DNA of 64,000 nt. It comes from Roseimicrobium gellanilyticum. GTDB lineage: Bacteria; Verrucomicrobiota; Verrucomicrobiia; Verrucomicrobiales; Verrucomicrobiaceae. Shown here in pieces: positions 1,590 to 19,326 of this stretch (position 1 is the stretch's first letter; every line of letters starts with the position of its first letter). The notes under the pieces are model-generated. The model was not told the DNA's origin and ran no database searches. It saw only the letters and a program-made list of their open reading frames with translations. The stretch lies in NCBI RefSeq assembly GCF_003315205.1, contig NZ_QNRR01000001.1, forward strand, positions 248,001 through 312,000, in the 5' to 3' direction. The translations under genes and the position numbers were made by a program.

Positions 1590-4500
1590 ATGATTCGCCG
1601 TCGCCTTTTCGTCATTGTAGCATCCCTGTTGAGTTTTGCTCTTGCGGTTCAATCGCAGACTGCTGCTCCCGCCACGCCGGCACCGGTGCCTGTCCCAGCC
1701 GTGCCAGCCTCCCCTCCGGTACCGACGGTAGTCGCTCCAGATGCGCCGCCTCCTTCCGTGCCGCCGGTGACGGTGCCTGAACGTCCTCGTATCAGTCCTC
1801 CTCCCGTGGACACGCCACCGGTACCAGTTCCGGTGCCTGTGAGGCCATCCAGTTCCCCTCCGGGGCGTCGGCTGAATACCGCGCCACCTTTGTCAACACC
1901 GCCCGCAAGTGCTCCCACCTCTCCCATGCCCGTGGTGCGTGAACGCGAGCGTACCATCTATGTGCCCTATGAGGAGCTGGAAAAGGTTTTCACCGATGAC
2001 GGCAAGGGGGTTTTCCTTCCCTATAAAGAGTTCCTGGAACTCTGGCAGGAACTGAATCTCAAACGTGCCAAGGATGAGACCAAGCCGCCTCAAGAAGGTG
2101 TGGTGTCCCGTGCCGAATATACCGGTATCGTGGAAGGTGAGGTGCTTACCATTGATGCGAAGATCACGGTGGAGTCCTTTAAGGAAGGATGGCTTACCAT
2201 CCCGCTGTCTCGAGGTGGAATTCTCCCGGGCGTGACGGATGTCGATGCAGGAAATGCTACGCTGTCGAATAAACCTGATGGCTACGATTTGATTGTCCCT
2301 GACAAGGGCGTGTATGAACTCAAGATGAAGCTGCACGCGAGCATTGGCCGCAGTGGAGGCAAGTCGCGGCTGAACCTCACGCTGCCTTCTGCGGCGGTGT
2401 CACGATTCACGGCGACCGTGCCGGGCAGTGGATGGGAGTTCGAAGTCAATCCTTCCGCCGCATTCACGTCGCGTCCCGCGGGGGAGAAGACGGAGTTGTC
2501 CTTCTTCTTCGGCAGCGGATCCCGCTTTGAGATCGCCTGGAGCAAGCCGGAGGCCGCTGTGGCCTTGAAGCCGCTGATCCTCGCTTCCAACAAGGTGACC
2601 AGTGAAGTGCGTGGTGGGTCCCTCGCGACAACCGCTGCCATCGACCTGCGCATCCTGCGTGCGCCGGTGAGTGAGTTTGTCATCAGCGTGCCCGCAGGGC
2701 AGTCCGTACTCTCCGTGACGGGGGATGATGTGAAGGAGTGGAAGCTCGATGGTGCGGACACACCTGCTGGCGGTGCGGCACAGAAGCTGACGATTGTGCT
2801 CAATGAAGCTGCCAAGGAGAAGTGGTCAGGAACGGTGTCCCTGGAGGTCCCGCTGCCCAAGCTTCCAGCAGATGCTCCCGTGCCGCTCATTCAAATCACC
2901 GGTGCCGCGCAGGATCGCGGCGATCTCACCGTGGTGGCTGAGCCGCAACTCGATGTGATTCCGAAGGCGGGCGAGGGGCTCATCCAGCAGACGGCTGCAG
3001 GAGATGCTGCGGCAGGTCTGGTGAATGTGTCTGCCTACCGTTACCTGAAGCATCCCGCGCAGCTCTCGCTGAACGTGAGCGAAGCCAAGGCGCAGGTGGA
3101 CGTGGAGAGCCTCACCACCTTCACCGTGGAGCGCGACCGCAGCCGGTTGGAGACAAACTTCCAATACCAGGTGCGCCGCGTGGGCATCTTTGATGCGAGA
3201 ATCCAGCTTCCCGCGGGATGGACCGGTTGGGAAGTGGTGGGAATAAATGCAGATGCCTGGGCCGTGGAGAAGAACGGAAACGTCGAGGTGCTGGCGATGA
3301 AGTTCCCCAAGCAGACACTCGGCGCGGCGAGCCTCACCTTGCGTGGACAGCAACTCCGCGCGAATCCCACCGACGACGTGACGGTACCGGTCTTCACTCC
3401 GCAGAACGTGGCGCGCCATGATGCGAAAATTGGCGTCTCCGTGCACTCCAGCCTGGAAGTGAACACCAAGGATCGTGGCTCACTCAGCCTGGAAGATGTG
3501 AATGCGTTGAGGGCGGTGATTGTCCCGAATGCGCCGCCTGATCCGTTTCGACCTGGCCAGCAAATCTCTCAACAGCAGACTCTGGTCGCACCCATCGAAG
3601 TGATGCTGGCCTTCCGCCATCGCGATGCGGTGCACACGCCCGCGACGCTTTCCTTCAAGCCCCGCCCGCCCCAGGTGAATGTGCAGGTCCTGACCCTGAC
3701 ACAGGTGAAGGAGCAGTCCACGCTGCACCAGTGGGAGTTGGTCTTCGATGTGGGCTATGCAGCCATCGACAAGTTCATCCTTGCCGTGCCGAAGGCCGTC
3801 GCAGGAGACATCCGCCTGGTGGATCCCCAGGTGAAGGAGATCCGCAAGGACTACCAGCCGCCCGCGAATCCCGCCCAACCCCCGTTGCCGAATGCGGAAA
3901 ATTATGCGCTGTGGGAAGTGGTGTTGCGCAATGAACACATGGGACAGTTTGCCCTGTCCCTCAGTCACGAGCAGCCGGGCACGGGGGCTCAGACAGCCAC
4001 GGTGGAACTCTTGCAGGTGCATGTGCCGGGAGCCTTTCAGGAGACAGGACAGGTCGCCGTGCTCAAGGATGACAATCTTGAAATCGTGAAGGCCACCGCA
4101 GACAGCATGGAGGAGATCGATCCTCGTGAATTGAGCGGGAGCTTGCAGCGTTCGGGAGTGTTCCTCGCCTACAAGTACAAGGCGCAACCGCTGGGCTTGA
4201 AGCTGGAAATTGCACGCAATGCCTACATCAGTGTGCCACAAGCGGTCATCACGCATGCAGTGCTCACCTCCGCCGTAGCCACGGATCGTGCGCAGACTAC
4301 GGAGGCGATCTACTGGGTGAAGAACAATGCCCAGCAGTTCCTTACCGTGAAGCTGCCGAAGACCGCGCGCTTGGTGAGTGATGTCTTCGTGAATGGCCAG
4401 ACGCAGCAGCCCATGAAGCGTGAAGGTGCGGATGATCTGCTGATTCGTCTGCCCTCGGATGCCGCTTCACGGCGTGCGGCCTTCCCCGTGCGTTTCGTTT

Positions 4501-5390
4501 ATGAAGTGCCCAGCGAGGAGGCCGGGAAAAAGATGGGCTGGTGGGGCGGTATTCACATCGAGCCTCCGACCCTGTTGGACGTGACGAAAGTGCTGGAGGC
4601 TCATCACGCCCTCTATCTGCCGGAGAGTCATGACTACACGGCGTTCAAGGGAGCGATGACCTTGAGCGTGCGCGATCGCGGCTGGGCGCGCTTCCGCGGC
4701 ATGGTGAATGCGCTGGTCCCTGCGTTCGGTCCCACCTTCACGCAGAGTCAGGGAGATTGGAATACGGTGCCCTCCATACCTGCGGATCAAAAGGCAGCCT
4801 TCGACTTCCAGGTGCCTGCGCAAGGACGCAACGTGGTGCTGCATCGTCTGGGCGAGCCAGCGGCCATTGACGTCTCGTTCCGTTCACGTGGCTTCTCCTA
4901 TTTCCTGGAGGGTGTGGTGTTCTTTGTGGTGCTTGCCCTCGGTGTCGCCAGATGGAAGGCGCCGCTGCGCACGAAGTTCCGTTACCTGCTCATCTTTGGT
5001 CTCGGCGGCATTTTGCTCACAGGCATCCTCAGTCCGGCGAATGGCCAGGTGGTCAAGGGATCCGTATTCGCCGCCGGCATCATGGCGCTGGCATGGACGG
5101 TTTGTGGATTCTTCCGTGGAGTAAAGAACTGGATGCAGCGTCCCAAGCATCGTCCTCCGCCTTACGGCGGCAGTGGCGGAGCGCCGCGTTCCGGTCCGCC
5201 ACCGCAGCCTGAACGGCCTGACCTTGCTCAAGCAAAGGTCCCGGTGCCCCCTGCGCCAGATGCCACCGCTGTGCCCGGCCCGTCACAGCCACCGTCCGAG
5301 GCACCGCCTGCTTCCGCTTCCGGCATCGAATTCCCCAACGTGGAGACACCTGATGCCCCGAAAGGTGGCAGTGGCTACGAGGTGAAGTGA
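1590..5390 (+). CDS. Giant periplasmic protein 1 of a three-gene paralogous operon, function unknown
   Basis: 1266 aa, no function recognised. ATG 1590 gives a clean signal peptide (MIRRRLFVIVASLLSFALAV). A proline-rich stretch of about 100 residues follows, then the anchor motif IYVPYEELEKVF...VFLPYKEFLELW (about residues 121-150), then roughly 900 residues of predicted beta-rich sequence. A segment with QFLTVKLPKTARLV (about 909-922) recurs in the next two proteins. Near the C-terminus are three hydrophobic helices (about 1102-1175) and a proline-rich tail. The likely topology is a periplasmic ectodomain anchored in the inner membrane. It sits first in a tightly packed operon with two paralogues (1-base gap, then a 4-base overlap). 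I recall the VFLPY motif from Planctomycetes and Verrucomicrobia, but know of no assigned role. Confidence 0.88.
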   Translation: MIRRRLFVIVASLLSFALAVQSQTAAPATPAPVPVPAVPASPPVPTVVAPDAPPPSVPPVTVPERPRISPPPVDTPPVPVPVPVRPSSSPPGRRLNTAPPLSTPPASAPTSPMPVVRERERTIYVPYEELEKVFTDDGKGVFLPYKEFLELWQELNLKRAKDETKPPQEGVVSRAEYTGIVEGEVLTIDAKITVESFKEGWLTIPLSRGGILPGVTDVDAGNATLSNKPDGYDLIVPDKGVYELKMKLHASIGRSGGKSRLNLTLPSAAVSRFTATVPGSGWEFEVNPSAAFTSRPAGEKTELSFFFGSGSRFEIAWSKPEAAVALKPLILASNKVTSEVRGGSLATTAAIDLRILRAPVSEFVISVPAGQSVLSVTGDDVKEWKLDGADTPAGGAAQKLTIVLNEAAKEKWSGTVSLEVPLPKLPADAPVPLIQITGAAQDRGDLTVVAEPQLDVIPKAGEGLIQQTAAGDAAAGLVNVSAYRYLKHPAQLSLNVSEAKAQVDVESLTTFTVERDRSRLETNFQYQVRRVGIFDARIQLPAGWTGWEVVGINADAWAVEKNGNVEVLAMKFPKQTLGAASLTLRGQQLRANPTDDVTVPVFTPQNVARHDAKIGVSVHSSLEVNTKDRGSLSLEDVNALRAVIVPNAPPDPFRPGQQISQQQTLVAPIEVMLAFRHRDAVHTPATLSFKPRPPQVNVQVLTLTQVKEQSTLHQWELVFDVGYAAIDKFILAVPKAVAGDIRLVDPQVKEIRKDYQPPANPAQPPLPNAENYALWEVVLRNEHMGQFALSLSHEQPGTGAQTATVELLQVHVPGAFQETGQVAVLKDDNLEIVKATADSMEEIDPRELSGSLQRSGVFLAYKYKAQPLGLKLEIARNAYISVPQAVITHAVLTSAVATDRAQTTEAIYWVKNNAQQFLTVKLPKTARLVSDVFVNGQTQQPMKREGADDLLIRLPSDAASRRAAFPVRFVYEVPSEEAGKKMGWWGGIHIEPPTLLDVTKVLEAHHALYLPESHDYTAFKGAMTLSVRDRGWARFRGMVNALVPAFGPTFTQSQGDWNTVPSIPADQKAAFDFQVPAQGRNVVLHRLGEPAAIDVSFRSRGFSYFLEGVVFFVVLALGVARWKAPLRTKFRYLLIFGLGGILLTGILSPANGQVVKGSVFAAGIMALAWTVCGFFRGVKNWMQRPKHRPPPYGGSGGAPRSGPPPQPERPDLAQAKVPVPPAPDATAVPGPSQPPSEAPPASASGIEFPNVETPDAPKGGSGYEVK

Positions 5391-5391
5391 G

Positions 5392-8300
5392 TTGAAACCC
5401 ACCAGGCCTGCCATGGGACGACACTTCACCTTCACCGGAGGCACGCTCGCGCGTGCTACGCTCGCATGCAGCGTGCTCCTTGCCGCGCCCTTGTGCGCTG
5501 AGGATACTGCGAACCAGACTCCACCAGCGCCTGCACCCACACGCCACGAGGTCTGGGTTCCCACCAAGCACCTCAAGGAGGTGCTGAAGAAGCACCCGAA
5601 TGCCGTGGTGCTGGATCGCATGCAGTATGAGGCGCTTATTCGTGATGCCGGGAGGGTGGGGCCTCTCAAGGATCAAGAGGCACCCATCAGTGCGGTCATC
5701 GAAGAGGTGAAGGTCACGGCCCGGGTGCCTGCAGGGATGACGATGGCCACGATCACCTACGAGTTCCGCATTCGGAATTTGAGGGAGGGATGGAGCGCCA
5801 TCACCGTGCCATTCGCCCTTGGCGGGATTGCGGGCGGCACGGCTTTGCCGTCGTCGCCAGCGTCATCCACGTTGCGCGATGTCATGCTTACCGACATGTC
5901 GGCGGAAAAACCAATCATGGTAACCGCGGATGAGAATGCGTGGAAGACCACGGTGCTCTCCCAGGGAAGTGGCAGGCACGTGCTGCGTTTGGTGTTTGCC
6001 GCTCCTGTATCAGCGAAGGACGGAACGCTCGGCATCTATGGCCCCGGGTTGACTGAAGTGATCTGGAAAGAGGGAACGAAGGGCAAACAACCCGCCGGCC
6101 CTGTGCCATCAGTCCCAGTGCGTCTGGAGTTGCCTGAAGGATGGAGACCCTCGTCCACGAATCCTGCCACTCAACTGGACGATGGTGCCTGGCTTGTTTC
6201 ATCCGGCACACAGTTTTGGAGCGCGCCTGCCAGGAATGCCGCACAACCGTTTCCCATGGTGAAAGTTGAGTGGGAAGCGGTGGCCGGTGTTGCCAAGGGT
6301 GATGATTCCGTCATCCAATCACAGGGCTCCACGCTCTACAGCGTCTCAGGTGATCGTGTGGCCGTCATTGCCATGCTGGGATGGTCGGGAACACAGCCGC
6401 GCGCGACCGAGACGCTTCGGGTTGCCCTGCCGAAGAATGCACAGGTCCTGCGAGCCAGCACGCTCGGCCCTGCGATGGATGCCACGGCGTGGAAACCCGT
6501 GGATGGAGGTGTGGAATTCCAATCACCTGTAGTGGCGAAGAGCAGCGGAAAGGTGTTGGTTGAATTTGAGGCGCCATGGGGTGTTGCCTCCGGTGCCGTG
6601 CAGCCGCTGGAGTTGCCAGTAGCGCGCGTGGAAGGCGCGGTGACCACCCGGTGGGACCTCGCCATTCTGGCGGAGCCGGATATCGGAGTGCGTCTCGCGA
6701 AGCTCCTGCCGACTGCGAGGCCCGTGACGGAGCTCGACAAACAGACGCTTCGCTCGCTGGCCCAGGGAGCGACGAAGGGCGTCGGCGTAGGTGCCCAGCT
6801 TCAGGCTGAGTCGCAGCGGGATCTTTTTGCTCACCCACGTTTCCTTGGCGCGTTCAGTTTCGATACGCCACCCGACCAGGCCGTGGTGGAGGTGCAGGCC
6901 GTGCCGGATCGCTTCAGCGTGGACGCAGATGCACTCGTGGAGGTGACCTCGCATGAAGTCGGGGTATTGCGTACCCTGGTGTTTCACGGGGAGGCAGGCA
7001 GCACCTCGCGCGCGGTGATCACACTGCCGGACACGGAAGTGTTTCTCGAAGTGCCCGTGACCTCCGGTGAGCAGGTGCTGTGGAAGCAGGTGGGCCGAGA
7101 TATCGAAGTGACGTGGCCCAAGGGCCTGGCCAAAGGAGGGCAGACCTCCATGACAGTGCGCACGCGGCGTGACATTCCACCGCAGGCCGCAGATGGAACT
7201 GCTGCGGAAAAGATGGTCATCGCCAGCATTCCTGTTTCAGGCGCCAGTCGTGTGTCTGGCTACGCCGCGTTGAAGTTTGACGAGTCGTGGAAGGTCAATG
7301 TCACGGATGTCACCGGTCTTGAGACTCGTGACGCGAGGGCCACTCCCGTGCGCGGTCGCATGGCGTGGTTTGGGTTGAAGGAATGGAAGCTCGGCTTTGA
7401 TTTGAGCCGCCGGGCTCCGGTGCATGATGCCACCGTCACTGCGTATGCCCTGCCTCGTGCGAAGCAGGTGGAGATTGAGGGGCAGATTGCGCTCAGTGTT
7501 TCCGGTGCGCCACTACGCAAGTTCCAGGTGAAGCTGCCAGTGGCCATCGCTCCGCTGCTGCGAGTGACCTCTCCACTCGTGGGCGAGCAGTCACTGGATA
7601 CTGCCGCGGGAGTCTGGACGCTTTCCTTGGGGCGTGAACTTATCGGCACGGCCAACGTTCGGTTCCGCATGAGCTTGCCTGCGGACAGTGCTGCGGAAGG
7701 TTCGCGCGAAGGCACCCTCACTGCAGCGCTGCCAGATATTACCCTCCCTGGAGCGCGACGCACGGCGGGACGTTGGGTGGTGGAGGCGAATACGGACACG
7801 GAGCTGGCCTTCACCACGCGTGGGGTGCAGCCGCTGGATTCACGGCGTCCGCCTGTGGTGGAGGGCTATGCGCCGCAGCATCGCATCATCGCCGCGTACA
7901 GCCATGGGGGAGGGGAGCATGAGATTCGCCTCACCGCCACACGGCATGACGCGGCATCCCTCGCGGGCATGGTATTGATTCACCTGCGCATGACCAGTGT
8001 GCTCGGGCAGGATGGCTCCGCTCGTCACGAGGCCATCTTTACACTCCGCCACAACGGGCGGCAATTCGCCACCATCCGCCTTCCGGACGGTGTGGATCTG
8101 CTCAGTACCATGGTGGATGGCAAGGTCGTGAAGCCCGTGAAAGCAGGCGCGAATGAGGTGCGACTGCCGCTGAGTTCTCGCATCGGCGACTCCGCACCCA
8201 TCGAGGTGAAAGTGATTTATGATACACCTTCCGGTGCGTGGGGAGGCAGTGGCAAGGTGGCGCTCACTCCGCCGACCCTCGGCGATGAAGTGCCGGTGAT

Positions 8301-10152
8301 GGAAACCCAGTGGAAGGTCTATAGTCCCGATGGGTTCACCCTGGCGCATGATGGCAGTGGACTGGAAGAGGACGAAAAGGTCGACTCAGCGAGGCCCCGT
8401 GGGCTCTGGAAGAGCCTGTTTGGTGGTTTCTCCTTCGCCAATGAAAGGGAATGGAAATCGCAGATGGACTTTCTTCCCGGCGGAGTACCGGCGGCGGCGA
8501 CTGTCCAGCAACAAGAAGACATCCGTTCCATCGTTGAGCGGTTGAACCGGATCGTCCTGCGGGAGGTTAAATTTCAGGGGGCAGGCTTGGAAGACGCTCT
8601 GGAGTACTTGCGCATCAAGGCAGGACAAGCGGGCGCGTCAGGAGGCGTGAACATGATCGTCAAACCCGGGACGTCACCCACATCTGCGACCATCTCCTTG
8701 GACCTCAAGGATGTTCCGTTTCTTGAAGCCCTGCGTTACGTCACGGAACTGTCTGGCACGAAGTATCAAATCAATCCCTCCCCTGGTCCGGGTATGCCTG
8801 GGGCCATTGTTATTGTGCCCATGGCGGATGCAACGACTGACCTGCATGTCCAGCAGTTCAAGCTTCCGCTGGCCCAGATGCTGGCACTGAAAGAACGAAC
8901 GCCCAGTGGGGGTGCGGTGCCGGGCACTGCGGACCCTTTTGCCACCGGGCGCGAAGTCACGGCGTCTGACATGGACATTCTGAAAGCTCAGGGCATCGCA
9001 TTCCCTCAGGGCTCCATGGTCCGCTATGATCGCGATTCGCAAACGTTGGTCATCAGTAATACCAAGCCCAATCTCGACCTTGTCGATCGCCTGGTGTCGA
9101 GTCTGAAGCCTGAGGACGATTTCGCGGATCCCATGGTAAACCTCAATGAGCCCGCCGTAGGGTTCGGCAAGGTCCATGGGGGGATGGACTACAATTTGGA
9201 GAAGATGTCCAAGCTGATCTTCCCGAAGGTGCAGTTTAACAACACATCGATCGAGGAGGCCATTGAGTTTCTTCGCATCAAGAGCAGAGACGTCGACCAT
9301 ATGGAGCGCGATCCTTCCAAGAAGGGCGTCAATCTCATTATCAAACCCGGTGCTGCACCATCCACTGCGACAATCTCCCTGGATCTCACGGACGTTCCGA
9401 TGTCGGAGGCGCTGCGCTATGTGACGGAACTTGGCGGCATGAAGTACAAGGTGGAGCCCTTTGCAGTCGTGGTGGTGCCCATCACGGATGTGGCTACTGA
9501 GATGTATACGCGGACTTTCAGGGCACCGCCGTCCCTCTGGAGTAGTGCCGAAGGTTCCGGACTTTCATCCCGGGCGACGGCCAAGGAGCAACTGGCATCC
9601 ATGGGCATTCCTTTCCCGGAAGGCTCATCTGCGGTGTTCCTCCCTGCGACGAGTCAGTTGATTGTGCGCAACACCCAGCCCTCTCTTGATCTGATTGAAT
9701 CTTATACGGACGGATTGATGGTGGTCGCCGCCACTGAACGGAGGAATGCGTCGCTGGCACGCGCGAAGTCTGGCCAGGTGCCTCTGGAGTTGGAGCTGCC
9801 CATGGCCGGTCAGGTTCTGTCCCTGGCTGGTCAGCAACGGCCGAAGGAACTCACGTTGCGCTATCTTTCATGGGAGAGGCAGATGGCACGTACGAGCCTG
9901 CTGGTGTTGCTGGGCATCGCAGTGTTCTGGACACTGGGAAGAGACCGGGTTTGGCTGACCACATTTGTGGCGGTGCTCCTGCTCACTTGTGTCCCGGTGC
10001 TTCTCCTGCCGTCGTGGAGTCTCACTTGCCATGCGCTCCTGACCGGCTGGTTACTGGCGCTGGGGGTGTGGCTGCTGTGGAAAGTGGCGTGTTGGTGGAA
10101 GCGAAGAACGGAAGTGACTGCAAATGCAAATGGCGGGGAGGTGGTGGCATGA
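5392..10152 (+). CDS. Giant periplasmic protein 2 with two STN-like repeats, function unknown
   Basis: 1586 aa, paralogous to both neighbours. I chose TTG 5392 because GAGG lies 9 bases upstream; the in-frame ATG at 5413 is an alternative and keeps the signal peptide (ATLACSVLLAAPLCA). The anchor motif reads VWVPTKHLKEVLKK near residue 60. The shared QFATIRLPDGVDLL segment lies near 890. Two tandem modules of about 230 residues (about 1045-1260 and 1276-1450) each contain an STN/secretin-N-like unit: a conserved ALRYVTEL helix preceded by ATISLDLKDVP or ATISLDLTDVP. Hydrophobic helices at about 1500-1575 anchor the C-terminus. STN domains occur in secretins and TonB-dependent receptors, which hints at a role in an envelope complex; that is inference. 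Confidence 0.87.
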   Translation: MKPTRPAMGRHFTFTGGTLARATLACSVLLAAPLCAEDTANQTPPAPAPTRHEVWVPTKHLKEVLKKHPNAVVLDRMQYEALIRDAGRVGPLKDQEAPISAVIEEVKVTARVPAGMTMATITYEFRIRNLREGWSAITVPFALGGIAGGTALPSSPASSTLRDVMLTDMSAEKPIMVTADENAWKTTVLSQGSGRHVLRLVFAAPVSAKDGTLGIYGPGLTEVIWKEGTKGKQPAGPVPSVPVRLELPEGWRPSSTNPATQLDDGAWLVSSGTQFWSAPARNAAQPFPMVKVEWEAVAGVAKGDDSVIQSQGSTLYSVSGDRVAVIAMLGWSGTQPRATETLRVALPKNAQVLRASTLGPAMDATAWKPVDGGVEFQSPVVAKSSGKVLVEFEAPWGVASGAVQPLELPVARVEGAVTTRWDLAILAEPDIGVRLAKLLPTARPVTELDKQTLRSLAQGATKGVGVGAQLQAESQRDLFAHPRFLGAFSFDTPPDQAVVEVQAVPDRFSVDADALVEVTSHEVGVLRTLVFHGEAGSTSRAVITLPDTEVFLEVPVTSGEQVLWKQVGRDIEVTWPKGLAKGGQTSMTVRTRRDIPPQAADGTAAEKMVIASIPVSGASRVSGYAALKFDESWKVNVTDVTGLETRDARATPVRGRMAWFGLKEWKLGFDLSRRAPVHDATVTAYALPRAKQVEIEGQIALSVSGAPLRKFQVKLPVAIAPLLRVTSPLVGEQSLDTAAGVWTLSLGRELIGTANVRFRMSLPADSAAEGSREGTLTAALPDITLPGARRTAGRWVVEANTDTELAFTTRGVQPLDSRRPPVVEGYAPQHRIIAAYSHGGGEHEIRLTATRHDAASLAGMVLIHLRMTSVLGQDGSARHEAIFTLRHNGRQFATIRLPDGVDLLSTMVDGKVVKPVKAGANEVRLPLSSRIGDSAPIEVKVIYDTPSGAWGGSGKVALTPPTLGDEVPVMETQWKVYSPDGFTLAHDGSGLEEDEKVDSARPRGLWKSLFGGFSFANEREWKSQMDFLPGGVPAAATVQQQEDIRSIVERLNRIVLREVKFQGAGLEDALEYLRIKAGQAGASGGVNMIVKPGTSPTSATISLDLKDVPFLEALRYVTELSGTKYQINPSPGPGMPGAIVIVPMADATTDLHVQQFKLPLAQMLALKERTPSGGAVPGTADPFATGREVTASDMDILKAQGIAFPQGSMVRYDRDSQTLVISNTKPNLDLVDRLVSSLKPEDDFADPMVNLNEPAVGFGKVHGGMDYNLEKMSKLIFPKVQFNNTSIEEAIEFLRIKSRDVDHMERDPSKKGVNLIIKPGAAPSTATISLDLTDVPMSEALRYVTELGGMKYKVEPFAVVVVPITDVATEMYTRTFRAPPSLWSSAEGSGLSSRATAKEQLASMGIPFPEGSSAVFLPATSQLIVRNTQPSLDLIESYTDGLMVVAATERRNASLARAKSGQVPLELELPMAGQVLSLAGQQRPKELTLRYLSWERQMARTSLLVLLGIAVFWTLGRDRVWLTTFVAVLLLTCVPVLLLPSWSLTCHALLTGWLLALGVWLLWKVACWWKRRTEVTANANGGEVVA

Positions 10153-13100
10153 GAACGTTCCTTGTAACAATGCTGAAGATGCTGCCGGCAGCCATGGCCG
10201 CGTGGTGCATGACGGGTGTCGCACAAGCTCAGACGCCACAGGTGCCCCCGCCAGATACCGCAGCGCACACGGTGATTGTTCCGTTTGATGCCTCGAAGCC
10301 GCTGAAGGATCAGCCGCCTGAAAAGTTCTATCTCGATTACGCCGTGTTCCAGGATCTGTGGTCGAAGGCCAAGGAACACCGTCGGCCGGAAGAGCCGGAG
10401 AAGGACACGGGCACAGGTGTCGCCGTGAATCTCGCCATGCATGACGTGGCAGTGGAAGATGCTGCGCTCACGGTGAAGAGCCGCTTTCAGATGGGATCCC
10501 GTGGCGAGTGGCAGAGCGTCAGTCTCCCGCTGGCCATTGCGGGAAATACAACGGTGGACTGGACGCTGAACGGTCGTGTTGCGTCGCGCAAGGATGGCAA
10601 GGTGCTTTTGGAAAACCCCGGAACGCATGAACTGGACGCCATGGTGACGGTGGGGCTTTCTCGTGGCTGGCAGGAGGCTGCGCTGACAATCCCCGCGGCT
10701 GCGGCGAGCTTGTTACGTGTTTCCGTTCCCCTCACGGATGGGCTGCCGGATTTTACACCCCAAAGGCAAACCACCCTGGTATCCGAAGAGGTGCGAGATG
10801 GCCGGCGTGTCTTCACCTTCGTGCTCAACACGAGCCAGGGTGGGGACCTGACGTTGAAGCGGCAGGCGATGCGTCGCTCCGTGGATCAAGCGGTTGCTGC
10901 GGTGTGTGATGTCAGGACGGACCTCACCGTGCGCCAGAAGGTGGAGCAGGTGCATGCACGCCTGGATTTCACCTTCCCCGGCGCTGAGCGTTCTATGTTT
11001 GTGGTGTCGATGGATGAAGATGTGCGCCCGGTAGGCTGGAACGTCAGCGGCATGAAGGAAGTAGTCTTGCGGCGTGAGCATGGCCGGTTGCTGGCAGAGG
11101 TGCGCCTGCTCAAGCCTGTGCGGGATGCCTTCACGGTCTCCATGGTGGCGCTCCGGACCCGTGAGACGGTCGAAGGCGAGCGCAAGGCGCCCTACGTGGG
11201 AGCTCAAGCTTCGCGGGTGGAGCGTGTCATCCAGGTGTTCGCGCCACCTGCGCTGAAGATTCATGTGACCTCAGCGGGTCCGGAGCGCATCGCAGCGGCC
11301 ACCCCTCTGGAAAGTGGGGAGCCCGTCGTTGGAGCATGGAGATTGCGTGGAGACAACACCGTTGCCTACACTGTGAGCGTGGCGGAAGATACGGCGAGTG
11401 CCGAGATGGAGGCACTGGCACAGGTCGGGGTGAGCAAGCTGGAGATCATGATTGCGGCGAAGCTTCAGGCAGGGCGTCTGCCGCTTCGTGAAACCTATCT
11501 GAGATTGCCCCAGGGATATGAAGTGCAGAGTGTGCAGGGCGCTGGTCTCCGTGATTGGCAGCGGGATGAGAGCGGCGTGTTCGTGCAGTTCGATGCGAGC
11601 GTCAGTCGCGAGGCGCGCTTTGTGTTGAACGCCGCCATGACGCGCGCTCCGGGGGAAGCGGCACCCAGTCTGCCGGTGGTATTTTTTGAGGGAATGGCAA
11701 AACAAAAGGCCCGCATGTCGGTGGCGGTGAATGCGGCCATGGATGTGCGCTTGCAGTTTGATCGTGCCTGGCGCGAAACCGATCCCGCCTCCTTTCAATC
11801 AGTCTTCACGGTCTCTCCGCCTTGGGTGACGAAACGAGCGCTGCTCTGGGAGCCTGATGCTGCATCTGCCAAGCAGCCCCCCGCCGCGCCCACGGTGACG
11901 TTGCTTGCTCAAGCTCCCAAGTTCAGCACGGACACCGTGCTCCTGGTGCGCTCGGCGGATGAGGCATTGGCCTTCTCCCAGCAGGTGGGCATTGCAGTCG
12001 AGCAGGGGGCCGTGGCAGGTTTGAAGGTGCGACTGCCTGCGAGCGCGCCGGAGGCGCGTGTAAGTGGACCGGATGTGCGTGATGTACAGGTCACTACCCG
12101 GGGAGAAGCGCGGGAATACAACGTGACTTTTCAGGGGGAGATTCTTGGCACGGCGTCTGTCACGCTGGATTGGGAGCAGCCTCCGGCCGCGGAAGCAGCG
12201 CTGCCTTTGGTGGTGGTGGACGGTGCTTCACGCTCACGGCGTTTCTTCATTCTGGAGAACAACTCTTCGCGTGAGGTGAAGGCTGCCCTCACCCAGGTGG
12301 AGAAGACCGTGGCCTCTGCCGTACCATGGCTGCCCGAGGGTCTGGCCTCAACGGACTTGTATCAGGCTCGCAGTGCCGATGCGGAGATGAAGCTCACCTT
12401 CTCCAATACCCAGGCCACGGCTGCGAATGCAGCGATCATCACGCTTGCGGAAATCACCACGGCTCTGCGGCCCAATGGTGAGCGGTGGGAGACGGTGGTG
12501 TACTCACTGGCGAACCGTTCGCTCCAGTTCCTGCCGGTTCGCCTGCCCAAAGGTGCTGAACTGGTGACCGTGATGGTCGGTGATGAAATGGTGCGCGCGG
12601 ACTGGGGCACTCCTGCTACGACTGCTGGAGCCAAGGTCGAGCCCTGCCACCTCGTGCCCCTCATCCAGATGCGTGCGGGCCAGCTCTCACAGCAGGTGCG
12701 GCTCACCTATTTTGTGCCTGCGAAGAAGGACGGCCTCATGAACGCGGAGTCGATGGATGACCCGGAGCTCGTCGGCCTCTCCGCGGAGCGCACCCTGTGG
12801 AACGTGTGGGTGCCCGAGGGCTATGAACTCGATGAGTTCGACGGGAACATGGAAGAGGTGGTCGAGGATGTCATCGAGGACGAAAAGGTGCAGCAGAAGC
12901 TCAGTGACGTGCTCCGCCTGAATCGCATTGTCTCGATGAGCAGCACCAGTGTGTACGATGCGAAGGAAGCGCTCGGCAACGCCACCAAGGCGTTGGAAGA
13001 AGTGACCAAGTACCAGGAGAGCAAGAAGGCAAAAAGCTATCGAAGCACAAGCGACAGCAAACCCACCACCAAGGGCAAGGCCGTGGGAAAGGAAGTGGAT

Positions 13101-14309
13101 GAAGAAATGCGCTTCAAGAGCAATGCTCAAGTCGAACAGCAATTGCGGCAGCAGAAGGAACTGCTCGACTCGAACACCGGCAAGCTGAGCAAGACGGGCG
13201 CTGGCACCTTGCAGCTCCAGGTGGGACAGGACCGGTACCAGATGGATAGGCCCGTCGGCAACAATTGGAACTTCAACAAGGATGCCGCCGCAGGAAAGAG
13301 CAAGGAAGGAAAGATCATGCTCCAGGGTGCCAACACCGTGATCAATGACAACGTCGCGGTGAGCAACGACTTCCTGGTGGCCAAGGATGCGCCACCGAGT
13401 CCTTCGAAACCCGCGGCCCCGGATGCCAAGAAGCCTGTGCAGGGGATGAAGGCCGCCGAGGCCATGTCAGCGCTCTCGTCCAACAGTACGCTGAATAACG
13501 CACGCGGTGCTGCAAACTTCCTGCAGGCTGATGGCAGCTCCATGGTGCCGGCTGACGAGCGCTCAGCTGGGGGAACGCCGGGCCAGCCGGGAGTTTCCCG
13601 GGGCACGATTGTGACAAGGAGCGGCCAGATGGCGGTGATACCCGAGGCGCCTGCAATGCCCGCCGGTCCAGCAGCGGCCCCAGCTGATCCTTTCGCACCT
13701 GCTGCAGCCGATCCCTTCGCGCCCGCACGAGCTGGGGGAACGTCGCCGGTTCCACCGCCTGTCAACCGGCCCGCGGAACCTGGCCGGTACGAGATGGCGG
13801 TGACTCCGAGAAAAGCAGAGGATGTTCGCAGCGTGGAGAAGAATCTGCAGATGGGTTGGAGCAACTACAACCTCGGCAACTTTGATGCCGCGAACCAATC
13901 CTTCCAGGAAGTGCTGCGTGTGGACCCCTACAACCGCGCAGCGCGTCGTGGAATGGAAGCTGCAGAACGGCAGCGCGCAGAATACTTTGACACGGCAAGG
14001 GATCACACCCGTCTCCGCATGCTCAATGAAGTGAATCGTGGATGGGAAGACCCAGTGCCGGTGGTGATGACGACCCCGCAGTTGAAGCCCCAAGGCCGTG
14101 TCTCTCTGCCCGTGGAGGTGCCGCTGACCGGTACCGTGTACCACTTCCGCAAGCTGAAGGACCACGCCACGCTGGAGCTGGACATCGACAAGCCTCTGGA
14201 GCCCGGGCGCAAGACAGCCCTGTGGCTCCTCACCGTAGGAGCGCTGGTGTTGGGGGGCATCGCTTGGGTTGGGAGAAAGCAACATCCGGGCACCCGTCCC
14301 ACCGCGTGA
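10149..14309 (+). CDS. Giant periplasmic protein 3 with TPR-like C-terminus, function unknown
   Basis: 1386 aa. ATG 10149 overlaps the previous stop (ATGA), and GGGGAGG lies just upstream. Signal peptide ends near AWCMTGVAQA. The anchor motif is VIVPFDASKPLK...FYLDYAVFQDLW (about residues 40-70), and the shared segment QFLPVRLPKGAELV lies near 792. An acidic and coiled region (about 890-1010) is followed by a low-complexity part with one strand like autotransporter repeats (KTGAGTLQL). A TPR-like pair, NYNLGNFDAANQSFQEVL then RAEYFDTARDHTRLRMLNEV (about 1238-1296), resembles the N-terminal part of verrucomicrobial PilQ-like secretins as I remember them. One membrane helix lies near the C-terminus. 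Function unknown; co-translation with the other two suggests one complex. Confidence 0.87.
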   Translation: MRTFLVTMLKMLPAAMAAWCMTGVAQAQTPQVPPPDTAAHTVIVPFDASKPLKDQPPEKFYLDYAVFQDLWSKAKEHRRPEEPEKDTGTGVAVNLAMHDVAVEDAALTVKSRFQMGSRGEWQSVSLPLAIAGNTTVDWTLNGRVASRKDGKVLLENPGTHELDAMVTVGLSRGWQEAALTIPAAAASLLRVSVPLTDGLPDFTPQRQTTLVSEEVRDGRRVFTFVLNTSQGGDLTLKRQAMRRSVDQAVAAVCDVRTDLTVRQKVEQVHARLDFTFPGAERSMFVVSMDEDVRPVGWNVSGMKEVVLRREHGRLLAEVRLLKPVRDAFTVSMVALRTRETVEGERKAPYVGAQASRVERVIQVFAPPALKIHVTSAGPERIAAATPLESGEPVVGAWRLRGDNTVAYTVSVAEDTASAEMEALAQVGVSKLEIMIAAKLQAGRLPLRETYLRLPQGYEVQSVQGAGLRDWQRDESGVFVQFDASVSREARFVLNAAMTRAPGEAAPSLPVVFFEGMAKQKARMSVAVNAAMDVRLQFDRAWRETDPASFQSVFTVSPPWVTKRALLWEPDAASAKQPPAAPTVTLLAQAPKFSTDTVLLVRSADEALAFSQQVGIAVEQGAVAGLKVRLPASAPEARVSGPDVRDVQVTTRGEAREYNVTFQGEILGTASVTLDWEQPPAAEAALPLVVVDGASRSRRFFILENNSSREVKAALTQVEKTVASAVPWLPEGLASTDLYQARSADAEMKLTFSNTQATAANAAIITLAEITTALRPNGERWETVVYSLANRSLQFLPVRLPKGAELVTVMVGDEMVRADWGTPATTAGAKVEPCHLVPLIQMRAGQLSQQVRLTYFVPAKKDGLMNAESMDDPELVGLSAERTLWNVWVPEGYELDEFDGNMEEVVEDVIEDEKVQQKLSDVLRLNRIVSMSSTSVYDAKEALGNATKALEEVTKYQESKKAKSYRSTSDSKPTTKGKAVGKEVDEEMRFKSNAQVEQQLRQQKELLDSNTGKLSKTGAGTLQLQVGQDRYQMDRPVGNNWNFNKDAAAGKSKEGKIMLQGANTVINDNVAVSNDFLVAKDAPPSPSKPAAPDAKKPVQGMKAAEAMSALSSNSTLNNARGAANFLQADGSSMVPADERSAGGTPGQPGVSRGTIVTRSGQMAVIPEAPAMPAGPAAAPADPFAPAAADPFAPARAGGTSPVPPPVNRPAEPGRYEMAVTPRKAEDVRSVEKNLQMGWSNYNLGNFDAANQSFQEVLRVDPYNRAARRGMEAAERQRAEYFDTARDHTRLRMLNEVNRGWEDPVPVVMTTPQLKPQGRVSLPVEVPLTGTVYHFRKLKDHATLELDIDKPLEPGRKTALWLLTVGALVLGGIAWVGRKQHPGTRPTA

Positions 14310-14399
14310 GGTAGCTTCTTGTCTCGCGAGGGTGGTCTCGTGCGCCGGAAAGGTTTTGCGACCCATCCGCCACTAAATGTTTGCTGCCCTCTAGTTGCC

Positions 14400-14430
14400 C
14401 CCGCATACTTTGCGGGCCGGAATTCCCGGC
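14400..14430 (+). terminator. Two small adjacent hairpins after the giant-protein operon
   Basis: CCCGCA (14400-14405) pairs with TGCGGG (14411-14416), and GCCGG (14416-14420) pairs with CCGGC (14426-14430), followed by TTTGCTT. The stems are only 5-6 bp, so a weak terminator or chance is possible. It lies in the 155-base gap before the P450 gene. Confidence 0.25.
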
Positions 14431-14464
14431 TTTGCTTCCGCTCCCGCTTTTATGTAGGCAACGC

Positions 14465-15784
14465 ATGCTGGCTCCCTCTTCCCAGACCAAACCATCGCTG
14501 GATGCGGAGCCGGATCCTCTGGGACACTTGCTGAAGATGATCCGTGAGCAGGGCGACATTGTCCGGTACCGCAGCGGCTATGGCCCGGTGCACCTTTTCA
14601 ATCACCCGGACCATGTGCAATCCATCGTGCAAAATACCAACTTCGAGAGGACGGCCTTGCTGAAGATGGTGACCGGCGATGGACTGCTCGCGAGCGACGG
14701 TCGTCGCTGGCAGTCGCAGCGCCGTCTGTTGCAGCCGCCCTTCCATGAAAAGTGCCTGCACGGGTTTCTGCCCATGATCGCGGATGCGACGATGGGAATG
14801 CTCCGGCGGTGGGAGGCACTGCCCGGTGCGACACGAAGCGTCGACATCGGGAGGGAGACCAAAAGACTGACCCTGGAGATCATTCTCAGGGTGTTGTTCG
14901 AGAAGGTGAGCCAGGATGAAGTGACTCGGATGGCGGATGCGGCGAATGTCGTGATGCAGCATTTGGGAGAGCTCTCGGATGTGGTGCTGAATGTACCGCT
15001 CGTGATGGATCCCGGACGCGAGACACGGTTCCGCGCCGCCCTTGGAACCATTGATGCCCTGGTGGCCGGGCTCACCGCCAGAGTGAGCACCGGGGCAGGG
15101 CGGACTGGGGGAGTCGTGCCCACACTTCTGGAAGCGCGGGGGAAGGGGCTCGTCACCGATCAGGAAGTGCGGGATGAGATTGTCACAATGATCATCGCCG
15201 GGCATGAGACCACGGCCATCGCGCTGGCCTGGACGTTGTATCTCCTTTCGCGACACCCCGGGACGCAAACCCAGCTGGCGGATGAAGTAGATCAAGAGCT
15301 GAACCCGCAAGTCCCAACTACTGAAGTTCTTTCCCGGTTGGGATACATGCGCATGGTGTTTGATGAAGCCATGCGGTTGTATCCGCCGGTGAGCATGGTC
15401 GTGCGGCAATCTCAAAAGGACGACACGGTTGGCGGGGTGTCGATTCCTGCCGGCGCCCTGGTTGTCCTAAGCGCGTACACCACCCATCGTCATCCTGATT
15501 TCTGGAGCGATCCGGAACGCTTTGATCCCGGTCGATTTCATCCTGACCGCAGTCACGGGCGTCATCGTTATGCCTACTTTCCTTTCTTGGGTGGACGGCA
15601 CCAGTGTCTGGGCCAGGGCCTGGTGATGCTGGAGGCTCCGGTGATTCTGGCCCTGCTCACCCGCTACGTGCGGGTGACGATCCCGGAGGGCAGTGTGGGA
15701 AGACCCCTTCCCGGCATGGCGTTGCGCGTGCGGAGCGGGTTTCCTGCCACGGTGGACTTCAGAAGTGCTCTGCCACCATGCTAG
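14465..15784 (+). CDS. Cytochrome P450
   Basis: 439 aa haem-thiolate monooxygenase. Start ATG 14465 was preferred to upstream codons because the sequence before it is not P450-like. The I-helix oxygen-binding motif AGHETTA lies at about 245-251, the ExxR motif in FDEAMRLYPP, and the haem loop FLGGRHQCLG has its ligand Cys at 381. No membrane anchor is seen, so it is a soluble bacterial type needing separate redox partners; none is encoded nearby. Its stop overlaps the start of the next gene (ATGCTAG), which points to translational coupling with a fatty acyl-AMP ligase and suggests an acyl chain or lipid-derived substrate. That substrate is inferred from context only. Confidence 0.95.
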   Translation: MLAPSSQTKPSLDAEPDPLGHLLKMIREQGDIVRYRSGYGPVHLFNHPDHVQSIVQNTNFERTALLKMVTGDGLLASDGRRWQSQRRLLQPPFHEKCLHGFLPMIADATMGMLRRWEALPGATRSVDIGRETKRLTLEIILRVLFEKVSQDEVTRMADAANVVMQHLGELSDVVLNVPLVMDPGRETRFRAALGTIDALVAGLTARVSTGAGRTGGVVPTLLEARGKGLVTDQEVRDEIVTMIIAGHETTAIALAWTLYLLSRHPGTQTQLADEVDQELNPQVPTTEVLSRLGYMRMVFDEAMRLYPPVSMVVRQSQKDDTVGGVSIPAGALVVLSAYTTHRHPDFWSDPERFDPGRFHPDRSHGRHRYAYFPFLGGRHQCLGQGLVMLEAPVILALLTRYVRVTIPEGSVGRPLPGMALRVRSGFPATVDFRSALPPC

Positions 15785-17607
15785 CCGCATCACACAGTGC
15801 CGGGCCCCGCTTCACGCCGGATTCTGATCGTCTGAGGGGAATCCCCACGGGTGCGTACACGCTGGTAGATCTGGTGCAGAGTCATTCCGCAGCACATGGG
15901 GAGGAGCGTGCCCTCACCTTCCTGTTGAATGGTGTGGATGAAGCCGGCTCTCTTACGTATGCAGAGCTGGACCGCGAGGCGCGATCCATCGCGGCATGGC
16001 TTCAGTCACAAGCGCTGGAAGGTGAGCGTGCGCTGTTGTTGTTCCCCTCAGGTCTGGAGTTCGTGACTGCGTTTCTTGGCTGCTTGTATGCAAGAGTCAT
16101 TCCCGTGCCGGTCAATCCGCCGCGATTGAACCGCAAGGCGCATCGTCTTCGCTCCATTGTGGAAGATGCTGGCGTAGCGGTGGCGCTTACCACGATGCGC
16201 ATGCAGGAGCGCATGACGCCGGTCCTGGCGGAGGCGGGAATGAACACGCTGCGGATTGTGTCCATGGATGCTCGCCCTGCGGACATGGGCAGATGCTGGC
16301 AACCTCCGCATCTCCATGGTGACTCACTTGCGTTCCTGCAATACACTTCGGGGTCTACTTCGCACCCGAAGGGCGTGATGGTCAGCCATGGGAATCTCCT
16401 CGCGAATCATCGCATGATGCAGGAGGCCTTCGGTCAGACGGGGGAGACGCGAATCGTTACCTGGCTGCCGCTGTTTCATGACATGGGTTTGATTGGCAAT
16501 GTGCTCCAGGCCCTCTATCTCGGCACGGAGTGCACGATCATGCCGCCGGAGGTGTTTCTCATGAAACCCGTGTGCTGGCTGCAGGCGATGTCGCAGCGTC
16601 GCGCCACGTTCAGCGGTGCTCCCAACTTTGCCTACGAACTGTGTGCACAAAAGGTCACGGAGGAGCAGCGTCGCGGCCTTGACCTCAGTGGCTGGGAGAC
16701 GGCGTTTTGCGGCGCGGAACCAGTACACCACACCACCATGGAGCGGTTTGCGACGGCATTCGCCTCGTGTGGTTTCGGGCGGCAGGCGTTGTATCCCTGC
16801 TATGGGCTTGCGGAGGCGACGTTGTTTGTTTCTGGGGCCGGCAAGTTCGCGGGGGCGCGGAGTGCGCGCTTCAGCAAATCCGAATTGGAAAATCGCCGTG
16901 TTGTGGAGGTGACAGGTTCGGACTCTCTTGTTCCTTCGCGCATGCTTGTCAGTTGCGGGCATACATGGGAACAGCAGGAGGTGGTGATCGTGGATCCAGA
17001 CTCTGGTGTCCGCTGCGCTCAGGGGGAGGTTGGGGAAATCTGGATATCGGGGCCGCATGTGGCGCAGGGATATTGGAGCGGAGGAGGAAGGACGACGCAT
17101 GCCTTTGATGCCTTGTTGCCAGACATGGAAGGGACGCGCTTCCTGCGTACTGGCGATCTGGGCTTCATCCACCATGGTGGCCTGTACATCTCCGGCCGGA
17201 TCAAGGATCTGATCATCATTGCCGGTCGCAATCATGACCCTGCTGATATCGAGCACACGGTCGGTTCCTCCCATGTGTCGATCCGCTCCTCAGGTTGCGC
17301 GGCATTCCAGACGGAGGTGGAAGAAGAGACCAAACTGGTCATCGCGGTGGAACTGGAACGGACCATTGAAGGTTCGCCGGGAAACAGCGTTGCTGCTGCG
17401 CAGGATGGTGACATCGCTTCTGCCCTGCATGATATCGTGAAAAACATTCGCGAAGCGGTTTCGGCGCTCCATGATTTGTCCGTTCATGAAGTGGTCTTAC
17501 TGCGGCCGGCAGCGCTGCCGAAAACATCGAGTGGCAAAATTCAACGGCATGCTGCAAAGGCGGCATGGATGGAGCGAACTTTGAAGCTATGGCAACCAAG
17601 GAAGTGA
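15778..17607 (+). CDS. Fatty acyl-AMP ligase (FAAL family)
   Basis: 609 aa adenylate-forming enzyme. FAALs activate a fatty acid with ATP and pass the acyl group to an acyl carrier protein. Seen here: the phosphate-binding loop LQYTSGSTSHPKGVMVSH (about 186-203), LPLFHDMGLIGNV typical of the family, YGLAEATLFVSG, the hinge region with RTGDLGF and IKDLIIIAGRNHDPADIE, and the C-terminal catalytic lysine context LPKTSSGKIQRHA. Start ATG 15778 overlaps the P450 stop by 7 bases. The next gene starts inside the 3' end and supplies a carrier protein, so the pair fits a loading step. Long-chain acyl-CoA ligase is the alternative, but the HDMGLIG and hinge sequences favour FAAL. Confidence 0.92.
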   Translation: MLAASHSAGPRFTPDSDRLRGIPTGAYTLVDLVQSHSAAHGEERALTFLLNGVDEAGSLTYAELDREARSIAAWLQSQALEGERALLLFPSGLEFVTAFLGCLYARVIPVPVNPPRLNRKAHRLRSIVEDAGVAVALTTMRMQERMTPVLAEAGMNTLRIVSMDARPADMGRCWQPPHLHGDSLAFLQYTSGSTSHPKGVMVSHGNLLANHRMMQEAFGQTGETRIVTWLPLFHDMGLIGNVLQALYLGTECTIMPPEVFLMKPVCWLQAMSQRRATFSGAPNFAYELCAQKVTEEQRRGLDLSGWETAFCGAEPVHHTTMERFATAFASCGFGRQALYPCYGLAEATLFVSGAGKFAGARSARFSKSELENRRVVEVTGSDSLVPSRMLVSCGHTWEQQEVVIVDPDSGVRCAQGEVGEIWISGPHVAQGYWSGGGRTTHAFDALLPDMEGTRFLRTGDLGFIHHGGLYISGRIKDLIIIAGRNHDPADIEHTVGSSHVSIRSSGCAAFQTEVEEETKLVIAVELERTIEGSPGNSVAAAQDGDIASALHDIVKNIREAVSALHDLSVHEVVLLRPAALPKTSSGKIQRHAAKAAWMERTLKLWQPRK

Positions 17608-19238: not shown

Positions 19239-19326
19239 CCTGACCGGGCAGGCTGCACGCCAACAGGCGGATCGCGGTGGTCCGGTCTTGCATGGACCCC
19301 TACTCTGCGGCATAGCCTTCCCTCTC

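Follow-up and report, generated by a model that had tools for sequence, protein, structure and literature searches.

Three giant paralogous envelope proteins of Verrucomicrobiota and the pilus secretin modules carried by two of them

What would a bacterium do with three adjacent genes that each specify a giant envelope protein, two of which carry pieces resembling a pilus pore? The question arises from a 64,000-nucleotide stretch of the Roseimicrobium gellanilyticum genome (assembly GCF_003315205.1, contig NZ_QNRR01000001.1, positions 248,001 to 312,000), here called the window, to which all coordinates refer. Three plus-strand open reading frames (ORFs) occupy positions 1590-14309, and their products are 1266, 1586, and 1386 amino acids (aa) long. 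Secretins are the outer-membrane pores common to type IV pili and to type II and type III secretion. Our tentative answer, which falls somewhat short of probable, is that the trio is an inner-membrane complex that would dock to, or sense, the pilus secretin through matching N-domains.

Architecture of the three proteins

The genes are packed as an earlier reading of the DNA, made from its letters only (the sequence-only reading), described them, with a 1-base gap and a 4-base overlap. Gene 1 (1590-5390) encodes P0001 (protein 1, 1266 aa), with a signal-like stretch, a proline-rich stretch, a predicted tandem beta-sandwich ectodomain, three C-terminal membrane helices, and a proline-rich tail. 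Gene 2 (5392-10152) encodes P0002 (protein 2, 1586 aa from a TTG start), composed of a core ectodomain, a secretin-derived insert, a terminal hairpin, and three membrane helices. The 1-base gap holds for that TTG; an alternative ATG start at 5413 lies 22 bases from gene 1. Gene 3 (10149-14309), whose start overlaps the end of gene 2 by ATGA, encodes P0003 (protein 3, 1386 aa), with a core ectodomain, a slot containing a secretin TPR module, a terminal hairpin, and one membrane helix.

Most other features that had been proposed for the trio are also present. By hydropathy, each protein has a signal-like hydrophobic N-terminal stretch (protein 3 only at a laxer threshold), and the C termini have three, three, and one hydrophobic helices, respectively: residues 1102-1172 of protein 1 (4893-5105; model helices at 1001-1087), residues 1459-1562 of protein 2 (9766-10077, together with the terminal hairpin, by hydropathy and model), and residues 1357-1375 of protein 3 (14217-14273). 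Export and inner-membrane anchoring are predicted for all three proteins. Pairwise BLASTP E values of 5e-24 (1 versus 2), 2e-14 (2 versus 3), and 6e-10 (1 versus 3) put the suggested paralogy beyond chance. A QF..V.LP....LV block, QFLTVKLPKTARLVSDVFV in protein 1 (4335-4391), recurs with small changes at residues 916, 891, and 793 of P0001, P0002, and P0003, and the P-x-x-G block before the end reads PAQG, PMAG, and PLTG. The early VP...LW motif holds in part: proteins 1 (VPYEELEKVF...FLPYKEFLELW, 1953-2057) and 3 (VPFDASK...FQDLW, 10272-10361) end it in LW, whereas protein 2 reads ...YEALI. Searches of Pfam, NCBIfam, and PDB sequences with protein 1, alone or as a profile, give no significant family match.

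The three genes stay together in many relatives. A 237-aa segment of protein 1, searched in 38 genomes including that of R. gellanilyticum, matches 20 of them, with two or three matches in 18 of the 20, several split over contigs. Two peptide patterns, scanned against genome contigs, supplied 37 named loci, all labeled Verrucomicrobiota (L074 and L079 carry one isolate name), in which genes were assigned by core profiles G1, G2, and G3 of the three proteins. The order G1-G2-G3 occurs in 20 loci. Another 8 have G1 followed by one very long ORF, and 7 of these score at least 880 bits for both G2 and G3. The eighth, L062, is left out of the fusion count because its open 3776-aa ORF reaches only 182 bits with the G2 profile and 27 bits with G3. 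The contig ends before the whole cluster in the other 9 loci (G1-G2 in 5, G1 alone in 3, and gene 1 split into two ORFs near the contig end in 1). The order is thereby kept in 27 of the 28 named loci that contain what follows gene 2, with L062 the unclear exception, and no gene other than gene 2 or the very long ORF was seen after gene 1 in the 37 loci. The sequence-only reading had let its idea of a single machine depend on such co-location, and most complete loci show it. The genes mostly abut; in L049, gene 2 and gene 3 as called are 724 bases apart. Other arrangements are seen in G031 (L039) and G035 (L040), two relatives at the order level whose matches are weak. At all 7 fusion joints, the three hydrophobic helices of protein 2 are followed by the former protein 3 signal sequence as a fourth hydrophobic stretch, and therefore both ectodomains can lie on the same side. 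These gene 2+3 fusions suggest, and do not prove, physical association.

Regarding fold, an AlphaFold2 model of protein 1 residues 100-1200 made with 31 homologs has a mean predicted local distance difference test score (pLDDT) of 81.1 and a predicted template modeling score (pTM) of 0.42; the model of protein 2 residues 690-1586 has pLDDT 77.9 and pTM 0.37. Many domains are confident, and because whole-chain pTM is low the arrangement of domains is uncertain. The models predict beta-sandwich chains of the M1-aminopeptidase-N-domain/ribophorin-I type both for the protein 1 ectodomain and for the part of protein 2 nearest the membrane, and the rest of the trio's bulk is predicted, by homology, to be the same beta-sandwich rod. 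Specifically, the protein 1 model matches ribophorin I/Ost1 (Foldseek E 2e-8; VIA Z 13.3) with a root-mean-square deviation (rmsd) of 19.5 over 304 residues, the domains therefore being posed differently, and matches M1 aminopeptidases and LTA4 hydrolase in their N-terminal domain (Z 12.1, rmsd 3.6, 160 residues aligned). Foldseek also places integrin alpha chains near the top, with low TM-scores. Profile comparison finds domains 2, 3, and 4-5 of protein 1 mutually alike (2 versus 3, 98.7% probability; 2 versus 4-5, 98.0%; 3 versus 4-5, 94.9%) and gives no match of domains 1 and 6 to the other repeats. A related fold for the shared parts, likewise a stake of the single-machine idea, is what the models give: the modeled parts have one common predicted fold.

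The last beta-sandwich of protein 2 resembles the M1 N-domain of tricorn factor F3 (Z 13.5, rmsd 2.7, 140 residues aligned). That match uses model residues 171-802, and, with the secretin-type modules lying within this span and before the final hairpin, they are read as a predicted insertion in one loop of the sandwich. This acceptor slot comprises residues 985-1461 (8344-9774); the corresponding slot of protein 3, placed by alignment, comprises residues 899-1317 (12843-14099). The protein 2 model also matches the N-domains of the secretin XcpQ (5ngi; E 2.1e-4).

The slot contents are the most recognizable part of the trio. The family that proteins 2 and 3 match best is the Amuc_1098-family secretin (NF042912; PilQ of Akkermansia), and they match its periplasmic half. 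Protein 2 matches in two stretches (E 2.7e-87 for the protein, 293.6 bits), the best at profile positions 247-453, and protein 3 in one, at positions 136-237 (E 9e-36, 123.2 bits). Neither reaches the family cut-off of 750 bits, and protein 1 does not match. Further Pfam and NCBIfam hits of proteins 2 and 3 are to secretin, STN, and TPR models, all weak, and to families at the level of chance. Thus, the STN- and TPR-like parts that had been read in proteins 2 and 3 exist, and their best match is this secretin family; the Pfam STN and TPR models stay below their cut-offs. In-house profiles covering five secretin regions, including A, T, N, N2, and the barrel (B), resolve the modules further. 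Protein 2 has a first, more diverged N + N2 module (residues 1046-1240, 8527-9111; NF042912 positions 242-457) and a second (residues 1266-1442, 9187-9717), whose N part shows 78% BLASTP identity to the genome's own secretin over 123 aa (71% over the whole 136-aa stretch). Protein 3 has a TPR ("T") module (residues 1224-1306, 13818-14066), 82% identical to the same secretin over 80 aa by BLASTP (76% over the whole 87-aa stretch). The profiles find no secretin beta-barrel match in P0001-P0003.

Relatives share this layout. Gene 2 proteins have A, T, N, and N2 modules at one place and in native order, gene 3 proteins have mainly T, and gene 1 proteins have none. In NCBIfam, the secretin family is matched by 19 of the 28 rows for gene 2 or the fusion, by 7 of the 19 for gene 3, and by none of the 32 for gene 1. 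Slot length is 59-73 aa in gene 1 (0 in one truncated row), 49-972 aa in the 28 gene 2 or fused rows, and 230-443 aa in the 19 gene 3 rows. The gene 3 slots of relatives hold TPR modules, autotransporter-type repeats, or short secretin barrel shards. PATR autotransporter repeats are present in five of the 19 gene 3 rows and in one of the 28 rows for gene 2 or the fusion, ShdA or EprS appear as single-row matches with no barrel family listed, and P0001-P0003 have no autotransporter match in Pfam or NCBIfam. One gene 3 orthologue matches the planctomycete cytochrome C domain PSCyt1 (E 6.9e-14).

Origin of the secretin modules

Did the trio acquire its secretin modules once or repeatedly? Module trees were built only from hits at E 1e-10 that span 75% or more of the profile; they include 51 secretin rows rather than every secretin copy. 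In the N-module tree (70 rows: 51 secretin, 19 operon), a single operon clade is rejected by the approximately unbiased (AU) test (p 0.0003), and the tree needs 8 label changes, 6 of which are forced by well-supported branches. A 60-row tree made after this first one, without 2 secretins on long branches and 8 operon modules of the first copy, gives the same verdict (AU p 0.0002). Here, operon modules nest by genus (G000/G001 at 99/98, G006 at 100/100, G002/G012/G018 at 95/81, G022 at 98/85, and G009/G016 at 99/87); its weak spots are the nest of G011 (90/88) and the module of G024, which is not placed with its own secretin. None of 11 second-copy operon N modules falls within the clade of a second secretin paralog (13 rows). 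The T-module tree (60 rows, 9 operon) likewise rejects a single operon clade (AU p 3e-52), with 7 changes, 5 forced; one of its operon rows (G031, L039) comes from an ORF that is unrecognized by the core profiles and lies beside a gene 1-like ORF.

The cores behave differently from the modules. A quick core tree with one support value, built from 85 segments of at least 95 profile positions each, unites G2 (19 rows) and G3 (8 rows, the only ones for gene 3) as one clade each with support 99 and places 19 of 20 G1 segments in one clade with support 98; the outlier is a long stray gene 1 repeat (L071). Since the cores split by gene and the modules group with the genus' own secretin, the cores look vertical and the modules look to have been captured or replaced several times. 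It appears, from these trees, that the inserts were taken repeatedly from each lineage's own pilus secretin. The sequence-only reading had the paralogs diverging by adding modules; the separation of cores by gene agrees with it, and the simple addition gives way to apparent repeated capture or replacement.

Exchange may reach beyond the operon. The T module of the own genome's second secretin (L003, contig C13) groups with the first secretin of that genome, not with the second-paralog secretins of G002, G012, and G018, and the exchange is therefore not confined to the operon; these are hints of exchange between secretin genes as well. The first, donor-type secretin of the genome adjoins genes of the Amuc_1100, Amuc_1101 (PilM-like), and Amuc_1102 families. 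Amuc_1098 is described as the most prominent outer-membrane protein of Akkermansia in PMC4960237.

Once in place, the modules look constrained. The ratio of nonsynonymous to synonymous divergence (dN/dS) of operon modules is 0.11-0.25 in 10 pairs of species within one genus and therefore supports purifying selection; the gene 2 core, with 0.08-0.14 in 4 pairs, is close to this, and the secretin, with 0.03-0.05 in 3 pairs, is tighter. In two further pairs dS is saturated and gives no ratio. Among G002, G012, and G018, second-copy modules have a dS of 0.60-0.85, above the core dS of 0.24-0.28; first-copy modules have the core value (0.28) in one pair and differ from it in the other two (0.63 and 0.84). 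For G000 versus G001, module dS (1.00) is below core dS (1.36). On these few pairs, replacement of modules within a genus is possible. Very recent gene conversion is not supported, as modules and their own secretins are far diverged at four-fold sites (e.g., 24 of 48 and 18 of 31 identical).

Secretin pieces also occur elsewhere in the genome. The locus L160:8627-12519 (contig C1, approximately 1226.6-1230.5 kb) encodes a repressor resembling BlaI, a protein of 333 aa that contains a secretin N module, and a BlaR1-like M56 receptor; the receptor has a secretin-domain match and two N modules and is another inner-membrane receptor with secretin pieces. A YfbK-type protein is also present elsewhere in this genome.

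Possible functions of the trio

How might these parts work together? In the reading that we tentatively favor, three anciently diverged paralogs would act as one hetero-complex, and its bulk would be a rod of M1-N-domain/ribophorin-I-type beta-sandwiches. An acceptor loop in the predicted membrane-proximal sandwich of protein 2 would be filled with captured secretin TPR and STN/N domains that were then kept under purifying selection, and the same region of protein 3 would be filled to a smaller degree. Because the N-domains would be captured in anchored proteins, the complex would present secretin-like N-domains at the inner membrane. Contact of N-domain with N-domain would dock it to the ring that N-domains of the outer-membrane secretin form in the periplasm and would either couple the pore to an inner-membrane platform or report the pore's assembly state. 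STN domains contact each other, other secretins, and inner-membrane proteins, according to PMC11637429.

Several observations weigh against docking. The contact between trio and secretin is putative, and the arrangement of domains in the models is uncertain. Gene 2 rows that have neither a secretin N nor a TPR module include L045, L063, L071, L073, L076, and L080, so the module is not needed for core function. Label changes on the module trees cannot separate gain from loss. Barrel shards of approximately 25-65 aa sit in the slots of gene 3 (L045, L049, L050, and L057) and of gene 2 (L046); they are too short to act as N-domains and therefore fit a passive recombination hotspot. Finally, the Amuc_1098-family secretin matches in all 38 relative genomes (37 over the cut-off) and the operon segment in 20 of the 38. 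As the secretin is present in relatives with and without the operon, co-occurrence is uninformative, and it was rejected as evidence of function.

A second reading, possible if on the unlikely side, makes the trio the receptor arm of a trans-envelope system in which STN modules relay a signal as in the FecA-FecR type. The two-unit relative elsewhere in the phylum would lie by sigma and anti-sigma/VWA genes, and in the window's family the arm would be three genes located off any sigma locus. Among 288 genomes of the phylum, 47 match the gene 1 segment profile. Most matches beyond the window's family are in ORFs of approximately 2060-2370 aa; six of these ORFs have two hits each. Among 20 neighborhoods compared from matching genomes (the giant ORF of L156 is missing from the ORF set), a zinc-finger anti-sigma/YfbK-type VWA gene is present in 18 (L141-L147, L149-L159) and a sigma gene cluster in 12; in this arrangement the anti-sigma/VWA gene lies by an ORF of approximately 2100-2300 aa that has two ectodomain units. 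Pfam confirms both, with zf-HC2 on 15 of 20 and YfbK_C on 19 of 20 anti-sigma rows and Sigma70_r4_2 on 13 of 13 sigma rows. Moreover, 6 of the 20 anti-sigma rows match the Amuc_1098 family (NF042912), and a sensory use is also in keeping with the own genome's BlaR1-like receptor, which has secretin pieces and follows a BlaI-like gene. Two of the anti-sigma/VWA proteins (L154:1076-6274 and L158:4151-7660) have secretin A, N, or N2 modules of their own.

Near the operon itself, however, the picture is different. A comparison of flanks over 38 loci and 30 kb of the window finds no phylum-type sigma or anti-sigma gene beside the three-gene operon and gives only three weak sigma hits, at 22-25% identity, to two ORFs. 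The operon proteins have no anti-sigma family match in Pfam or NCBIfam; FecR_C is matched by 1 of 28 gene 2 or fused rows (E 0.0007). In the core tree, the giant units and the G1-G3 segments occupy separate parts, and descent of one from the other is unsupported; the exception is two L148 ORFs, which lie on the G1-G3 side on long branches. L148:1189-12453 has a gene 1-like 1171-aa ORF adjoining a 2578-aa ORF, with no anti-sigma neighbor, a possible intermediate arrangement. The docking and signaling readings do not exclude each other.

We further speculate, while considering it unlikely, that these bacteria practice a secretin self-mimicry, in which periplasmic domains of their own pilus secretin are repeatedly copied into inner-membrane receptor-like proteins (the trio, anti-sigma/VWA, and BlaR1-like proteins). 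In each lineage the trio's copies would be kept matched to the secretin, allowing secretin that is unassembled or unoccupied to be bound and sensed at the inner membrane.

The slot could instead be a recombination-prone, tolerant loop whose cargo is passive, with the beta-sandwich rods carrying the function, for example as a periplasmic scaffold or a client-binding arm like ribophorin I. The barrel shards and autotransporter-type repeats in the slot, the short slot of some orthologues, and the grouping of the second secretin's T module with the genome's first secretin all suit such a loop. Constraint on the modules (dN/dS 0.11-0.25) does not, nor does the recurrence of N-half modules in gene 2 in the native order A-T-N-N2, nor the match of the secretin family to 19 of 28 gene 2 or fused rows versus 1 of 28 for the Pfam autotransporter repeat. 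We judge this account unlikely. That the three are separately acting surface or periplasmic proteins merely in one operon accords with flanking genes that are not conserved (the largest non-operon cluster reaches 4 of 39 stretches, namely 38 loci and the window, some genomes twice), and is very unlikely given the conserved order and the repeated gene 2+3 fusion.

Directly 3' of the operon, at 14381-19238, lie genes for a cytochrome P450, a fatty acyl-AMP ligase, and a carrier-plus-condensation-domain protein, which resemble a small biosynthetic cluster. Beyond them, a 681-aa ORF (19288-21333) resembles a lipid A acyltransferase in its first half and a lipopolysaccharide heptosyltransferase II in its second, an apparent fusion.

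Comparison with known systems

Each part of the trio has a known counterpart. With the Amuc_1098-family secretin, proteins 2 and 3 only share periplasmic modules, STN/N in protein 2 and TPR in protein 3. They differ from it in having no barrel match and in scoring below the 750-bit cut-off, and their modules sit in an ectodomain with C-terminal membrane helices. Those helices, in place of a barrel, also distinguish the trio from autotransporters.

The likeness to ribophorin I/Ost1 and to the M1 aminopeptidase N-domain is one of fold: predicted tandem beta-sandwiches precede C-terminal membrane helices, at approximately 10% identity. Ost1 has two similar luminal beta domains, according to PMC7226087. 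No zinc metallopeptidase family hit (M1 catalytic domain) was obtained for the trio in Pfam or NCBIfam.

The FecA-FecR and PupB-PupR systems resemble the trio in having STN-type domains on inner-membrane proteins, and the trio's wider relatives lie by sigma/anti-sigma genes. The STN subdomain of the anti-sigma protein PupR is, with its neighbor, required to bind the STN-like signaling domain of PupB, according to PMC7186176. The trio differs in having no such adjacent sigma/anti-sigma gene and in N-domains that appear to derive from the pilus secretin. The link of the wider ectodomain family to sigma/anti-sigma loci makes a signaling role directly testable.

The remaining comparison is with GspC and PilP-PilN-PilO, which are inner-membrane-anchored periplasmic partners of secretins. 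Like them, the trio is predicted to consist of inner-membrane-anchored periplasmic proteins, and it is proposed to meet the N-domains of a secretin. It differs in size, in fold, and in its use of the secretin's own domains, and neither Pfam nor NCBIfam gives a GspC or PilP family match for the trio. A prior description of the trio was not found in an open-licence literature library. As far as checked, the parts are known, and their combination and recurrent capture at one site are apparently undescribed. Several apparent captures at one structural site constitute a natural experiment on whether domain capture is functional or recombination noise. Verrucomicrobiota is a large phylum with a poorly understood cell envelope, and a conserved trio that recurrently takes over the periplasmic domains of a secretin points to an undescribed partner or sensor of the pore.

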